NCBI GenBank assembly: GCA_007693605.1 | Contig: REDG01000035.1 | Coordinates: 1-64,000 of the forward strand | Direction of reading: 5' to 3' | Source: Bradymonadales bacterium | Lineage (GTDB): Bacteria; Bdellovibrionota; UBA2394 | DNA length: 64,000 nt | Part shown: in pieces, positions 34,303-41,302 of the stretch | How positions within the stretch are numbered: position 1 is the stretch's first letter | Layout of the letters: each line of letters starts with the position of its first letter | Made by a program: the position numbers and the translations under genes | Notes under the pieces: generated by a model | The model's input: the letters and a program-made list of their open reading frames with translations, nothing else | Database searches by the model: none | What the model was told of the DNA's origin: nothing

Positions 34303-34797
34303 ATGCTCAAAAGCTCTGAAATGCATCTGGTCTTGGTCGCGCCAAGAATTCCTGCGAATGTAGCGAGTGTGGCTCGAACGGCGATGGCCTTGGGGGCCAA
34401 GCTTCATCTGGTGGGGCCCTTTGGCTTTCGCTTAGACGAAAAGTCTATGGCTCGGGCATCGGTGGGCTACTTTAAAGAAGTAGACTACCAGACCTATATT
34501 GACTTCGACGACTTCTGGAAGTCGGCCCCTGTCGCGAGCTATATTTTTGTCACGAAACGGGGTGATTTTGACTACTCCGAGATCTCGTATTCACCGCCCC
34601 TTTGTTTGGTTTTTGGAAACGAAGAAGAGGGAGTGCCCCCAGAGTTTTGGGAAGTCCCAGGAGCCCAGAAATTTGTGTCTTGTCGGATTCCCACGGTCTC
34701 AGTACGCTGTTTAAACCTAGCGGTTGCGGTCGGAATACTGGGATTTGAGGTTCAAAGACAGTGGAGGCTGCAGAGAAAAATTGAGGGGGTAGGGTGA
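34303..34797 (+). CDS. SpoU-family tRNA/rRNA 2'-O-methyltransferase (TrmL-like)
   Basis: A 164-aa SPOUT methyltransferase without extra domains, the size of TrmL, which methylates the wobble ribose in certain tRNAs. Motif 1 (IPANVASVARTAMALGA), motif 2 (LVFGNEEEGVP) and motif 3 (CRIPTVSVRCLNLAVAVGI) of the deep trefoil knot are all visible. Substrate is inferred from length only. Its end overlaps smc by 4 bases. Confidence 0.85.
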   Translation: MLKSSEMHLVLVAPRIPANVASVARTAMALGAKLHLVGPFGFRLDEKSMARASVGYFKEVDYQTYIDFDDFWKSAPVASYIFVTKRGDFDYSEISYSPPLCLVFGNEEEGVPPEFWEVPGAQKFVSCRIPTVSVRCLNLAVAVGILGFEVQRQWRLQRKIEGVG

Positions 34798-37700
34798 AGC
34801 TAAAACGCTTGTTAATGCAGGGATTCAAGTCCTTCGCAGACAAAACCGAGCTGGTTTTTGATGAGCAAATTGTTGGAGTGGTGGGCCCAAACGGCTGCGG
34901 AAAGAGCAATATTGTAGACGCCATTCGCTGGGCGATGGGCGAGCAATCCGCCAAGGGGCTTCGTGGCAAAGAGATGTCTGATGTCATTTTCGCCGGGACG
35001 CCGGCCCGAAAGGCTTCGGGTCTAGCGGAAGTCAGTTTGGTCTTTGATAACTCTGACCATCAGGCCCCTGCGCCTTATACGGATTGCGCAGAAATCATGA
35101 TTACTCGCCGGCTTTATCGAAGCGGAGAAAGTGACTACCTGATCAATCTGGTGACCGTGCGCTTGAAAGATATTCATGACCTTTTTCTGGGCACGGGCTC
35201 TTCGGCCAAAGCCTATTCCATCGTGGCCCAAGGCAAGGTAGACGAAGTGGTTTTGGCAAAACCCGAAGACCGCCGTTTCTTGATCGAAGAAGCCGCCGGC
35301 ATCGCGAAGTACAAAATCCGAAAGCAGTCGGCCGAGAGAAAAATGGAGGCCACCCAGCAAAATCTAGATCGCGTGAACGATCTCTTAAGGGAGCTGGAGA
35401 AGAATTCAAAGAACCTTGAGAGGCAGGTCGAAAAAGCGGAGAAGTTTCGCTCTCTGCAGTCTGAGTTGAAAGCCAAGGAGTGTGATTGGATTGCGGCTCG
35501 ATTGAAGCGATTGGATGAGTCAGCCGTCGCCAATCAAGAGGCCTTGCAGTCTGCTCAAGATGCTCTCACCGAAAAGCAGTCTCGGCTTGCTGAAATTGAA
35601 GCGAAGATCGAGACTCTACGGCTTGAGTCCTTGCAGTACGAGAAGATCACCGCAGAGGATTATGAGTCTTTGATGTCTACGAAAGATCAACTTGCTCGCT
35701 TGGATACCGAGAGGGAGTTGGCCCAACAGAAGATGGAGCTTTTGAACAATCAAATCGCCGAAAGGCGATCAGATGTCGCAAGGTTGGGATCAAAATTTGA
35801 GAATCAAGAGGGCTCAAGGCAGCAGCTTCAGGCAGAGCTAGAGAGACGACAGCAAGAGAGGCAGCAGGCCGATCAGAAGCTTCGAGAGCTTCAGGCGGCA
35901 AGGGATCAGGCAGAGGATCGACTCAAAGACACTCAGGCAAACCTTGAGCGGATTTCTGAGGTCTTACAGGCTCATCGCTCTGAGCTGGCGGTAGAGAGCC
36001 AGCAATTGAAGATGAAAAGGGCTGAGCTTGTAGACATTGAGCTCTATCGGGCGGGTTTGGAGTCTCGCCTAGAGGTAGAGCGGCAAGAGATCAAAAGCCT
36101 AGAGATTGAAGACCACAGCTTTAGCGAAGACTTGCAGACAAAGCTTGATGAACTTCGAGTAAAAAAAGAAGAAGAGCAAGATCTCAGCGGGCGACGGGAG
36201 CAGCTTCTCAAAGAGCGAGAGAGTTTGCTAGCGGAGCTTTCTCGGCTCGATTCGGGCTGCATCGAGAAAGAGGCCGCTATTAAAAGCCTTAAGCAGTTAG
36301 AGCAACATGCTTTGGGTTACGATGGCATGGCTTTAGAGCTCAAGAAGCAAACGGGTCTGGAGCTCCTCATGGATCAAGTCAAGTTTCGACCAGAGGCTCA
36401 GGATCTGGGCGAGACCTTGATTTATCATCTCGGCCAGTTCTTTACAGAGAGTCTTGCCGATCAAGCGCTCGAGGCTCGGTGGACGAGTCTTCTATTGAAA
36501 GCGGGCTCCAATCGCCCGGAGCGCAGTCTGAGCTCTCTGCTGGACGAGTCGTCGAGTGAGCAGGTCAAAGATTTATTCTCTGCCATTGAGCTGGTGGACG
36601 AAATCGATTGGGAGTCGCCCACGGAGTTCTGCCAGTTAGATCGAAAAGGCGGCTGGCGAGCTTCTTTGGGGGCGAGTCTGGAGTTGAGAAGTTTTGGTAA
36701 GGTTTCTAGAGAGCAGAGCCCCTTCTCTCGCCATCATGAGATCATTCGCTCTGAGCAGGAGCTTTCAGAACTAAGACAAGAGCTGGGAGCGATGCAGGCG
36801 CGAGTGGAAGACAATCTTCAAAGGCAAGAAGAGCTTCGCAAGAACCTAGAGAAGACTCAATTGGCGCGACAAGAAATTGAACAGAAGCTTGAAGCGCTTC
36901 GTCAGGATCGAGAGCTGATTTTACAGCAGAAAGCCGGAAAGAATGCTCTTGCAGAAGAGCTTTCTGAAGAGATTCAAAAGACCGAGGAAAAGATTGCGAA
37001 GAAGAACGGCGAGATTCTCAGTCTGCCTGAGTTGAAGAGCACAGAGTCGATGGAGTTGGAGCTGGCGGAGGCTCGGCAAAGACTGGCTGAGGCGAAGAAT
37101 CAACTCGATGAAAGAGACGCCGATTGGGTGGAGTACCGAATCGAATGTGGAGCTTTGCAAGAGAGGCTAGAAAGAATTCAGCAGCAGTTTGTTTCGCTCG
37201 ATATGGCTCAGTCCGAGTACAAGCACAACCAAGGTCTTTACCAAAAGGATATTGAATTGTGGGAGCAAGAGATTCACTCGCTTCGACAGAATGTCAAAGA
37301 CTGGGCTGAAAGGGGCGCTCAAGAGCGAGAGAAGGTCCAATCGCTTGAGAAGGGCCTCGCGAAGTCTAAGGATCAAGTCGCAAACTTTCGTCGTGATTTG
37401 GAGGAGCTAGAGAAGTCTCGGCGAGAGTGGGCTTCATCAAAAGAGGAGTTGGTCGAGAGTCTTCAAGCGCTGGAGCTTGAAAAACAGCGCTTTAGCCTTG
37501 AGCTTGAGGAGATCAATCGCAGTCTTGAGGAGCGCTATGAGATCTCGGCTCAACAGCTTTTGTCCTCTCTTTCAGAGGAAGACTTAGAGAGCTTGGCGAG
37601 TTCGTCCTTGGAAGAGATGGCCCTAGAGGTGAAGGCTTTGAGGGAGCGCTTGTCGAAGTTCGGAGATGTGAATCTTGTCGCCCTCACCGAATATGAAGAG

Positions 37701-38288
37701 ATGAAGTCTCGCGTGGAGTTCATGAACACTCAAAGAGAGGACTTGTTAGGCACCTTAAGCTCACTTCAGAGCATCATTGATCGGATCAATCGAATCTCTG
37801 AGTTTCGCTTTCGAGAGACTTTCAATGCGATTAACCATAATTTTCAGCTCCTCTTTCCGAAACTTTTCGGAGGGGGTAAGGCTTTTATGCGATTGACTGA
37901 TGAGTCGCAGCTCTTAGAGACCGGCGTAGAGATTTTTGCAGAGCCTCCTGGAAAGAAGATCCAGGCGATGTCTCTGTTAAGTGGAGGGGAGAAGGCCATG
38001 ACGAGCATTAGTCTGCTCTTTTCTCTCTTTGCCTATCGCCCCTCTTCATTTTGTATTCTGGACGAGGTCGACGCGCCCTTGGACGACATCAACACGAGGC
38101 GCTACAACGAGATCATTCGAGAAATGTCCTCTCTTTCTCAGTTTATCGTGGTGACGCACAACAAGCGAACCATGGAAGCCGCATCCACCCTCTTTGGGGT
38201 GACTATGCAAGAGCCTGGCTGTTCTCGAATTGTTGGGGTCAACCTCACCGAAGCCAAGGCGTTCACCACGGCAGCGGCTGAGGCTTAA
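34794..38288 (+). CDS. smc: Chromosome segregation protein SMC
   Basis: A 1164-aa SMC ATPase that organises and segregates the chromosome. Walker A is GPNGCGKSNIVDAIRW near the N-terminus; the ABC signature LLSGGEKAMTSISLLFSLF and Walker B FCILDEVDAPLDD lie near the C-terminus; between them are long coiled coils and a hinge around residues 500-620. GTG start overlapping trmL. No scpA or scpB is in the window. Encoded beside a histone locus and ftsY. Confidence 0.96.
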   Translation: MKLKRLLMQGFKSFADKTELVFDEQIVGVVGPNGCGKSNIVDAIRWAMGEQSAKGLRGKEMSDVIFAGTPARKASGLAEVSLVFDNSDHQAPAPYTDCAEIMITRRLYRSGESDYLINLVTVRLKDIHDLFLGTGSSAKAYSIVAQGKVDEVVLAKPEDRRFLIEEAAGIAKYKIRKQSAERKMEATQQNLDRVNDLLRELEKNSKNLERQVEKAEKFRSLQSELKAKECDWIAARLKRLDESAVANQEALQSAQDALTEKQSRLAEIEAKIETLRLESLQYEKITAEDYESLMSTKDQLARLDTERELAQQKMELLNNQIAERRSDVARLGSKFENQEGSRQQLQAELERRQQERQQADQKLRELQAARDQAEDRLKDTQANLERISEVLQAHRSELAVESQQLKMKRAELVDIELYRAGLESRLEVERQEIKSLEIEDHSFSEDLQTKLDELRVKKEEEQDLSGRREQLLKERESLLAELSRLDSGCIEKEAAIKSLKQLEQHALGYDGMALELKKQTGLELLMDQVKFRPEAQDLGETLIYHLGQFFTESLADQALEARWTSLLLKAGSNRPERSLSSLLDESSSEQVKDLFSAIELVDEIDWESPTEFCQLDRKGGWRASLGASLELRSFGKVSREQSPFSRHHEIIRSEQELSELRQELGAMQARVEDNLQRQEELRKNLEKTQLARQEIEQKLEALRQDRELILQQKAGKNALAEELSEEIQKTEEKIAKKNGEILSLPELKSTESMELELAEARQRLAEAKNQLDERDADWVEYRIECGALQERLERIQQQFVSLDMAQSEYKHNQGLYQKDIELWEQEIHSLRQNVKDWAERGAQEREKVQSLEKGLAKSKDQVANFRRDLEELEKSRREWASSKEELVESLQALELEKQRFSLELEEINRSLEERYEISAQQLLSSLSEEDLESLASSSLEEMALEVKALRERLSKFGDVNLVALTEYEEMKSRVEFMNTQREDLLGTLSSLQSIIDRINRISEFRFRETFNAINHNFQLLFPKLFGGGKAFMRLTDESQLLETGVEIFAEPPGKKIQAMSLLSGGEKAMTSISLLFSLFAYRPSSFCILDEVDAPLDDINTRRYNEIIREMSSLSQFIVVTHNKRTMEAASTLFGVTMQEPGCSRIVGVNLTEAKAFTTAAAEA

Positions 38289-38303
38289 GTTCGCTCCCTT
38301 TTC

Positions 38304-38356
38304 GGGACTGTCGCCAAACTCTGGATTCGGGAGTGGCGTTAATGGCCCATCTGCTT
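38304..38356 (+). repeat. Dispersed intergenic repeat, copy 2 (composite)
   Basis: In the 130-bp smc-ftsY gap. GGGACTGTCGCCAA (38304-38317) resembles the element at 60429-60442; it is followed by GGGAGTGGCGTTAAT and GGCCCATCTGCTT (38329-38356), which match the copy at 13069-13097. The two halves are separated by 11 bases and CGCCA/TGGCG could pair. Confidence 0.6.
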
Positions 38357-38418
38357 CGGCGGCTGCTTCGCTCCCTTTTTGTGATGATCCTCTGCTGAAA
38401 TTTCGATAGAAGGTCTTC

Positions 38419-39522
38419 ATGTCTGATTTTTCATGGTCGCCGGAGTGGATTTTTGGCCTGACGCTCATTTTGTTGATGCTCTATGGTCTGGGGCTTGTCT
38501 ACAGAAAGTGGAAGTATGGAAACATCGACCGCTTTACGAGTCGCAAGAAGAAGGCCCCAGTCTCAGAGGATTCAGAGCTGGAGCGTTCGGATTCTGAATC
38601 GAGAGCCGGTGTTCGTCCGCCCTCTGCCGATCAGGAGCTGAAGCCCACAAAAAAGAGACTTCGACTGTCCAAAGCCATTGCGGATTGGTTTCCACTTCTT
38701 CAGAAGGACTCTAAAGACCCCAAAGAGTGGGAGCGAGTGATGATTTCTTCTGATCTTGGACCAAAACTGACGAAAGACTTGATTGCTGAGCTTCAAGGCC
38801 TTGAGGAAGAGCCTAAGGTTTTCTTGAAAAGACGATTGAAGGCTTGGCTTGATATCGAGACCCCCAAAAGGCCCGAAGACTCTTCGAGTCGTCCCTGGAC
38901 GGTCTTTGTGATCGGCGTGAATGGAGCGGGCAAGACGACCAGCATCGTAAAGTTAGCTCATTTCTATCGAAATCAGGGAAAATCGGTGGCAGTAATCGCC
39001 GCCGACACCTTTCGAAAGGCGGCGGTAGAGCAGCTTCAACGAGCCTGCGATCGTCATCAGATACCATGCTTTCAGGTGGTTCGAGAAGGAAGCACCGAGG
39101 GGGCCGATCCGGCCTCCGTTGTTTTCGACGGCCTAAAAAAGTTTCGAGAAGTCGATATCGTGTTGGTCGATACCAGCGGGCGGCTTCATAATAAAAAGAA
39201 CCTGATGGAAGAGTTAAAAAAGATGCAGAGGGTCGCCGAAAAGGCCTTGAACTCACCGCCTCAAGAGAAGCTTTTGGTGATTGATGCCTCTTTGGGGCAG
39301 AACGCGGTGCAGCAAGCTGAAAGTTTTCATGAAGCGGTGGGGGTCACGGGGATCATGTTGACCAAGCTAGATGGTTTGAGTCGGGGCGGCAGTGTTTTTC
39401 AGATGGTTCAGAGTCTGAGAATTCCCGTTCGATTTCTCGGAACCGGGGAGTCGGTTGAAGATCTGAGGGAATTTCGGGCAGATGAATTTGTCGATGAAAT
39501 GTTTGACCAGACTGGCACTTAA
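38419..39522 (+). CDS. ftsY: Signal recognition particle receptor FtsY
   Basis: SRP-receptor GTPase that docks ribosome-SRP complexes at the membrane. A predicted N-terminal membrane helix (about 11-28), a charged linker, and an NG domain with GVNGAGKTTS (G1), DTSGR (G3) and TKLDG (G4). At 367 aa it resembles membrane-anchored FtsY of non-enteric bacteria. It is upstream of the histone gene by 59 bp, so the histone could share its transcript. Confidence 0.95.
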   Translation: MSDFSWSPEWIFGLTLILLMLYGLGLVYRKWKYGNIDRFTSRKKKAPVSEDSELERSDSESRAGVRPPSADQELKPTKKRLRLSKAIADWFPLLQKDSKDPKEWERVMISSDLGPKLTKDLIAELQGLEEEPKVFLKRRLKAWLDIETPKRPEDSSSRPWTVFVIGVNGAGKTTSIVKLAHFYRNQGKSVAVIAADTFRKAAVEQLQRACDRHQIPCFQVVREGSTEGADPASVVFDGLKKFREVDIVLVDTSGRLHNKKNLMEELKKMQRVAEKALNSPPQEKLLVIDASLGQNAVQQAESFHEAVGVTGIMLTKLDGLSRGGSVFQMVQSLRIPVRFLGTGESVEDLREFRADEFVDEMFDQTGT

Positions 39523-39581
39523 TACTAAGGCTTGAAACCAGTTTGTCGTAATCAAGGAACTACCAGAGGAGATAGAGAGAA

Positions 39582-39758
39582 ATGTCAGATAGCTTAATTA
39601 TTCAATCGAAGATACGGGATGTATTTAAAGAGGCGGGATGCAACACAGGAAGTGATGCGATTGATTCCCTTAATCAAGAGGTGGCTCGAATTGTGAAGCG
39701 CGCAGTCGAGAGAACAAAGGAGAACGGTCGAAAAACCGTAAAATCTTCAGATATTTAG
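39582..39758 (+). CDS. Bacterial histone (single histone fold, Bdellovibrio HBb-like)
   Basis: A 58-aa protein, MSDSLIIQSKIRDVFKEAG at the N-terminus and ending GRKTVKSSDI. The helix-strand-helix pattern (short helix, DAIDSLNQEVARIVKRAVERTKENG, then RKTV and a terminal DI) fits a lone histone fold and resembles the single-domain histone HBb described from Bdellovibrio bacteriovorus. In that family, dimers coat and bend DNA without eukaryotic-style wrapping. AGGAGA lies about ten bases upstream. It lies between ftsY and an oppositely oriented H1-like gene. Fold match is by pattern; I have not run a structure or profile search. Confidence 0.8.
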   Translation: MSDSLIIQSKIRDVFKEAGCNTGSDAIDSLNQEVARIVKRAVERTKENGRKTVKSSDI

Positions 39759-39798
39759 CCCATTTTCGCTAAATTTTTCCGAAAACGAGTATAAAAAA

Positions 39799-39820
39799 AG
39801 GGCCTCCCAAAGGAGGCCCT
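39799..39820. terminator. Bidirectional Rho-independent terminator between the histone genes
   Basis: AGGGCCTCC (39799-39807) and GGAGGCCCT (39812-39820) form a perfect 9-bp stem with a CAAA loop. It is followed by TTTTT on the plus strand and by AAAAAA (a T-run on the minus strand) before it, so it ends the histone transcript and the H1-like transcript alike. Confidence 0.9.
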
Positions 39821-39843
39821 TTTTGCAAACCCAAGAAGAGAGC

Positions 39844-39966
39844 TTACTTTCTCTTTTTCTTAGTAGCTTTTCGCTTGGTTGCTTTTCGCTTAGAAGCTTT
39901 TCGCTTCGTTGCTTTCTTCTTAGTAGCTTTTTTCTTAGTAGCTTTTCTTTTTCTTCTAGCGGCCAT
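39844..39966 (-). CDS. H1-like lysine-rich repeat protein
   Basis: A 40-aa protein made almost only of K, R, A and T: it begins MAARRKRK and continues as pentads of the form KATKK/KATKR/KASKR, ending KKKRK. It has 25 basic residues in 40 and none acidic. Such tails resemble histone H1/H5 C-termini and the bacterial Hc1/AlgP-type DNA-binding tails. GGAGAAAAC precedes the ATG. It faces the histone-fold gene across a shared terminator. A DNA-compacting partner is the likely role, by composition and context, not by homology. Confidence 0.7.
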   Translation of the reverse strand: MAARRKRKATKKKATKKKATKRKASKRKATKRKATKKKRK

Positions 39967-40102
39967 GTTTTCTCCTTCGTCGATTTTGAATTAGGTCAGG
40001 GGCTTTGTCCTCAAGTAACGAAGAGGATAAATCCACTGATCCAATTCTGTTTATCAAGAATCGAAAAACAACAACAGCGTTTTTCTGCTCTTGACACTTA
40101 CT

Positions 40103-40231: not shown

Positions 40232-41143
40232 TTATCGGATTTCGATTCTTCGATCGGGATTGTTTCGACTAGTTCGGCGAGCTTTTGGCTTGGGCAAGCT
40301 TCTCATGACTTCGATCGATTGCTGAAAGTTTCGAGGCAGTTGCCGCATGTTTGCCGGAGTTGGGGAAAAGTAAATGCTCTCACCGCTCTCTAGTGTGAGT
40401 TCGATGTATTGATCGGTAGTTTGAGAGATCGAACGAACCTCTTGAGGTCGAAACCGCTGTCCGGCCACTTCATACTCCTGTTGAATCTGCGCTCTTTTGC
40501 CCTCTTGGATTTCTTTTGACACATATTGAACGCCCAAAAAGAGGTTGAGAACGAGTAGAGCGACCAAGGCGCCAAACTTCTGAAATCGCTCCCGTCGGCT
40601 CTGGGCCTGCTCCCACTTCAACAGGCGGATCTCCTCTAAGCGATCGATGCTGGCCTGTTTCGTCTTGGCTTGAACCGCGACGCCAGACGGCAGTGCCGAG
40701 CGAACAAAAGACTCTAAGCGCGACCGAATGTCTTGAGTGAGGTTCACAAACTCTACCCCAAGTCCATTAGGAGCGACCCGACACACCCGAGCCTTCAGTT
40801 GAAAGTCAAAGCTTTCTCCATTTGCCGGATTCGGAACGCTGAAATGAATGCCGATGAGTTCGCCCACCCGCCTCTTCTCGTCAGTTTTGACAAAAAGGCC
40901 CCCTAAAGAGATGTTCTCAATATAGTGCTTGGCGAATTGTGCATCGTGCGAAAAACGAAGGCTAATCTCGTTCTTTCTAAGCCCGGCCCGTGAAAAGCTT
41001 CTTCGCTCGTCCGGACTGGGATGTTCAGGCTGTGTGTCTGAATCTAAAGACTGCGCCTTCGAATCTGCTTCAGCCGTTGATGGCTCTGACTTGTCGGTCC
41101 CTTCCGTATCGAAGAGGCTTTCAATTCGGTCTTTAAAATCCAT
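40232..41143 (-). CDS. PilZ-domain membrane protein
   Basis: About 303 aa. A PilZ-like domain (about residues 45-150) has RRSFSRAG and IENISLGGLFV (the NxSxxG part of the c-di-GMP site), a membrane helix follows (about 189-208, FGALVALLVLNLFLGVQYV), and a soluble C-terminal tail. The arginine motif is not the canonical RxxxR in full, so c-di-GMP binding is likely but unproven. The ATG at 41143 has GGGGA upstream; an earlier in-frame start is poorer. Confidence 0.82.
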   Translation of the reverse strand: MDFKDRIESLFDTEGTDKSEPSTAEADSKAQSLDSDTQPEHPSPDERRSFSRAGLRKNEISLRFSHDAQFAKHYIENISLGGLFVKTDEKRRVGELIGIHFSVPNPANGESFDFQLKARVCRVAPNGLGVEFVNLTQDIRSRLESFVRSALPSGVAVQAKTKQASIDRLEEIRLLKWEQAQSRRERFQKFGALVALLVLNLFLGVQYVSKEIQEGKRAQIQQEYEVAGQRFRPQEVRSISQTTDQYIELTLESGESIYFSPTPANMRQLPRNFQQSIEVMRSLPKPKARRTSRNNPDRRIEIR

Positions 41144-41302
41144 GAAATCCCCGCACTCCAAACTTCAGTTTACCAAATTCCCTGAATTTTCGGGCCTCTA
41201 GCTCAAATGAGAATGATCTGGCCCCCTGAATCCGAAAGAGCGGAACTAAGTGACTAAAATCACTGCTTTTCTAAAGGGCTCTCCTCAAGATAAAAGAGAA
41301 GG

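Follow-up and report, generated by a model that had tools for sequence, protein, structure and literature searches.

In an uncultured bacterium related to the predator Bdellovibrio, a genuine histone gene of very small size faces a gene for a very short lysine-rich protein, both within the 64 kb stretch of DNA that was analysed as a whole (the window). Our preferred reading, to which we assign a probability of roughly 60%, is that an ordinary tail-less histone of the face-to-face (FtF) type lies beside a real, convergent and independently expressed H1-like peptide of the Hc2/AlgP-tail type, which would condense DNA. Both kinds of protein are already known, and what is new is how they are arranged; we found no earlier report in the literature of histone and H1-like genes side by side. 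The Bdellovibrionota FtF histones in a published survey come mainly from class Bacteriovoracia; the present ones represent a further class, small and separate, in which the histones lack a tail, as in archaea, and two genera contain two FtF paralogues. The genome of the window is designated G000, and the relatives CG11_..._45_16 and UWPOB_DELTA4, which also contain the pair, G001 and G002. The features of the locus are as follows.

34794–38288, + strand: smc, collinear in G001 and G002
38419–39522, + strand: ftsY, next to the histone gene on its upstream side, in the same position in G001 and G002
39582–39758, + strand: tail-less single-fold histone of FtF type, 58 aa (phmmer, AlphaFold2, Foldseek and FtF residues)
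39795–39824, either strand: bidirectional terminator, perfect 13-bp stem with a 4-nt loop and arms with an A-run and a T-run
39844–39966, − strand: lysine-rich H1-like protein with KATKK pentads, 40 aa (composition, codon usage, and homologues in G002 and G001)
39967–39978, − strand: ribosome-binding site of the H1-like gene, GAAGGAGAAAAC (from sequence)
40232–41161, − strand: PilZ-like protein gene (PilZ by sequence appearance), upstream of the H1-like gene

The histone and other nucleoid proteins

The product of the histone gene, MSDSLIIQSKIRDVFKEAGCNTGSDAIDSLNQEVARIVKRAVERTKENGRKTVKSSDI, retrieved Leptospira HLp as its best match in phmmer comparisons against the PDB (2.7e-8), followed by HBb (3.5e-7) and then by archaeal histones, while its matches to NCBIfam archaea_histone (1.1e-6) and to Pfam CBFD_NFYB_HMF were both below cut-off. 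An AlphaFold2 model, obtained with a 35-sequence alignment as input, had a pLDDT of 92 and placed HLp at the top in Foldseek searches (TM 0.90–0.93), with HBb and HTkC next; the predicted structure is a single histone fold with a truncated alpha3. These profile and structure comparisons bear out the histone fold proposed in the initial annotation, although not the HBb type to which it was there attributed. FtF histones are defined by residues R41, N45, R47, T49 and D54 (numbering of H. volcanii D4GZE0), and bacterial dimer histones are devoid of the first two (R48 and N52 in the numbering of the HMM logo) (PMC11390915). In the 58 aa protein the signature is R44, N48, R50, T52 and D57, invariant across the 35-sequence alignment; since R44 and N48 are both present, at positions where HBb has S and D, the protein is an FtF histone by sequence. 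Equivalents were also found for all the residues to which tetramerisation of HLp is ascribed (R49, N53 and R55; PMC12701072), as well as for D62 of the RD clamp. By homology to HLp, the protein is expected to assemble into the torus-shaped tetramer of FtF histones, to wrap DNA (HLp wraps about 60 bp) and to act as a nucleoid-associated protein.

A second FtF histone, of 57 aa, tail-less and 64–65% identical to the first, is encoded in G000 between ung and the gene for an NtrC-type regulator (C49:5438–5611, locus L003); G001 has one in the same place (L011), and there is no lysine-rich neighbour at either paralogue. Proteins of 149–173 aa combining a zinc finger with a histone fold, like the known ZZ family (PMC11390915), occur in G001 and G002 and in two other relatives, G003 and G004 (L012, L013, L014, L015), and none was found with the query used in G000, which is 90% complete. 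Proteins of the HU/IHF family are present in the five genomes, with one to three per genome, and the histone is therefore not the sole architectural protein. The only HU/IHF gene found in G000 (C30:67386–67658) is on the contig of the window, just outside it, whereas the relatives have two or three.

The lysine-rich gene and the convergent arrangement

The lysine-rich protein, MAARRKRKATKKKATKKKATKRKASKRKATKRKATKKKRK, is as first described: 40 aa of KATKK-type pentads with 25 K/R and no D/E (62.5% K+R). Its gene has its own ribosome-binding site, with the Shine-Dalgarno sequence AAGGAGAAAAC upstream of the ATG. By comparison, in 40 simulated sequences of 64 kb the highest K+R content among ORFs of 30 aa or more had a mean of 34% and a maximum of 43%. 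The repeats vary at third codon positions (GCT/GCA, ACT/ACG/ACC, AAA/AAG), which fits a coding sequence; together with the Shine-Dalgarno sequence and the comparison with simulated DNA, these synonymous differences exclude a chance ORF. Short lysine-rich repeats and the absence of acidic residues characterize Hc2 and other H1-like proteins, and both were found here. None of the curated H1, Hc1 or Hc2 families in Pfam or NCBIfam matched the protein, which is a weak test for a low-complexity sequence, and the winged-helix globular domain of eukaryotic linker histone H1 is absent, the protein consisting of repeats throughout. It is a disordered polycation resembling the lysine-rich pentad tails of Hc2 and AlgP, and its most likely role is to neutralise and condense DNA, or some other polyanion, irrespective of sequence.

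The stop codons of the two genes are separated by 85 bp, and the perfect bidirectional terminator that the initial annotation had placed there was confirmed, as was the position of smc and ftsY directly upstream. Folding of the stem gave z = −3.5; a simple terminator scan of the window did not list it, and an RNA family search produced no match. G001 and G002 contain hairpins in the equivalent position, although different in sequence. The convergent orientation implies that the two genes have a terminator in common, but no common promoter.

Conservation of the pair and comparison with other histone loci

Each of the three related genera with this ftsY-linked histone has the pair. G002 encodes proteins of 58 and 18 aa, the latter (MAAKKKGKKKKATKKKKK) in the same place and preceded by its own AAGGA, whereas in G001 the H1-like gene is cut by the contig end and only its C-terminus (KRKKASKKKKK, then the stop codon) is visible. 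These two further genera retain the C-terminus and the convergent terminator and, where visible, the start and ribosome-binding site, with a varying length, in agreement with the H1-like protein being the product of a real gene. The order smc, ftsY, histone and, on the opposite strand, H1-like and PilZ-like is found in G000 and G002, and also in G001 within the limits of its contigs, the PilZ-like gene of G001 being at a contig start.

This conservation extends well beyond the pair. Between 34 and 60 kb of the window, the majority of genes encoding 100 aa or more have collinear counterparts in G001 as well as in G002, and the same holds between 22 and 33 kb for G001, the only relative covered there. 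Because nearly the whole neighbourhood is collinear, the adjacency of the pair, whose expected recurrence in relatives did hold in three genera, provides no independent evidence for joint function, and its value as proof of coupling is weakened accordingly. Retention of both genes argues that each of them is real and useful, without implying that they act jointly. No true ftsY was found in G003 or G004, only matches of about 36–39% in frames of about 450 aa that are probably Ffh; the PilZ-like gene of G004 is at a contig end, and the pair could lie beyond the contig there.

A scan of 113 histone loci for a basic ORF within 1.2 kb detected only that of G002, the contig-truncated gene of G001 being invisible to it, and no H1-like neighbour appeared at the other ~110 prokaryotic histone loci outside the lineage. 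Likewise, smc or ftsY accompanied the histone only in G001 and G002 among the other loci, and an archaeal locus (L104) had an ftsY-like match about 4.6 kb from the histone. Searching the phylum for KATKK proteins gave matches in 29 of 369 genomes, of which 24 also have a histone, as compared to 272 of 369 overall, indicating no clear enrichment. Among the matches listed in both searches, no KATKK gene outside the lineage adjoins a histone gene, the nearest distance on one contig being about 118 kb (G270); a general pairing of histones with lysine-rich proteins across the phylum was thus discarded. Long KATKK-type H1-like proteins of 80–157 aa exist elsewhere in the phylum (L054, L058, L067, L071, L074), with no adjoining histone seen. 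Histones with 57–64% identity were also found in MAGs whose label is either Gemmatimonadota or simply "bacterium" (L084, L085, L086), and in L086 an apparent rlmN gene, recognized by eye, is convergent to the histone gene.

Possible relationships between the two proteins and similarity to known systems

The initial annotation had proposed a two-component chromatin locus. On this reading, the lysine-rich protein would bind DNA between or around histone tetramers like linker histone H1, the two acting as a pair. Both proteins are of predicted DNA-binding types and the pairing itself is conserved, but the convergent genes, the block-wide synteny, the lack of a globular H1 domain, the mere 18 aa of the G002 protein, and the lack of pairing at the paralogue and at other histone loci make this cooperation unlikely. 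A related idea, that the adjacent gene supplies in trans the basic tail that the histone lacks, takes account of the histones from G000–G002 being tail-less, each with a separate lysine-rich gene, while those from G003 and G004 start with MAKKKM in cis and no lysine-rich gene was found there. Nevertheless, that cis tail is very short, the genomes are incomplete and an 18 aa gene would escape the search for lysine-rich proteins, and tail-less histones without a lysine-rich neighbour are found both at the paralogue and at loci L025–L027; we consider a tail in trans distinctly unlikely. Put more broadly, it is doubtful that a separate polycation of 18–40 aa gives the tail-less FtF histone its basic tail or linker function as a minimal core-plus-linker pair. 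If the polycation did act with the histone, the two would make up a core-plus-linker chromatin system of great simplicity, in which the role of the histone tail could be addressed directly, the tail being a separate molecule. Least probable is that the 40 aa protein is a general binder of polyanions, such as ribosomes or RNA or polyphosphate granules, and not a chromatin protein: AlgP, with its H1-like tail, localises to these granules (PMC9239181), but no polyphosphate gene was seen in the immediate neighbourhood and no Pfam or NCBIfam match places the protein there.

We favour an independent histone and H1-like gene, which lie next to each other in what is probably an ancient part of the chromosome that rearranges slowly, and which would be expressed separately; both products may act on the nucleoid, not necessarily in a dedicated complex. 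Consistent with this are the matches of the histone to HLp, HBb and HTkC, including the HLp tetramer residues and RD clamp; the composition of the 40 aa protein, far from chance, and its maintenance in three genera; and the absence of such a neighbour at the ~110 other loci and at the paralogue, while the near-complete collinearity of the neighbouring genes explains the adjacency without functional coupling. Conversely, the pair has stayed together even though the proteins around it diverged to roughly 30–60% identity and gene order in G002 changed just past the PilZ-like gene, which adjoins the pair there too, and 18 aa is a very small size for a protein that condenses DNA.

The closest known relative of the histone is the FtF protein HLp of Leptospira perolatii (PDB 9QT0–9QT2), with which it shares the fold (TM 0.93), the equivalents of R49, N53, R55 and D62, and the truncated alpha3, although they are only 37–38% identical in the structural alignment and HLp has a short N-terminal extension; the accessible part of the HLp report does not mention an H1-like neighbour (PMC12701072). 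According to the same report, hlp adjoins smc in many Leptospira, and the FtF histone of the window is also near smc (smc-ftsY-histone, 34794–39758). A basic N-terminal tail is typical of most bacterial FtF histones (PMC11390915), and in being tail-less the histone resembles archaeal FtF histones (HTkC and the 55 aa haloarchaeal proteins), which also have the FtF residues and, in the haloarchaeal case, the LIVQSKVRE start, but belong to another domain of life, with identities of about 41–45% for the haloarchaeal ones. HBb of Bdellovibrio bacteriovorus (Bd0055) is similar in histone fold, RKTxxxxD motif and length, and differs in the S and D that replace R44 and N48 and in being a dimer that bends DNA. 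The lysine-rich protein, in turn, shares short lysine-rich repeats with chlamydial Hc2 (HctB) and the tail of Pseudomonas AlgP, these being much longer (165–237 aa for Hc2; 352 aa for AlgP, with an N-terminal domain) than the repeats-only proteins of 18–40 aa described here. The number of lysine-rich pentamers in Hc2, and hence its length, is variable (PMC2848022), a variation by repeat number that is shared by the H1-like proteins of this lineage.
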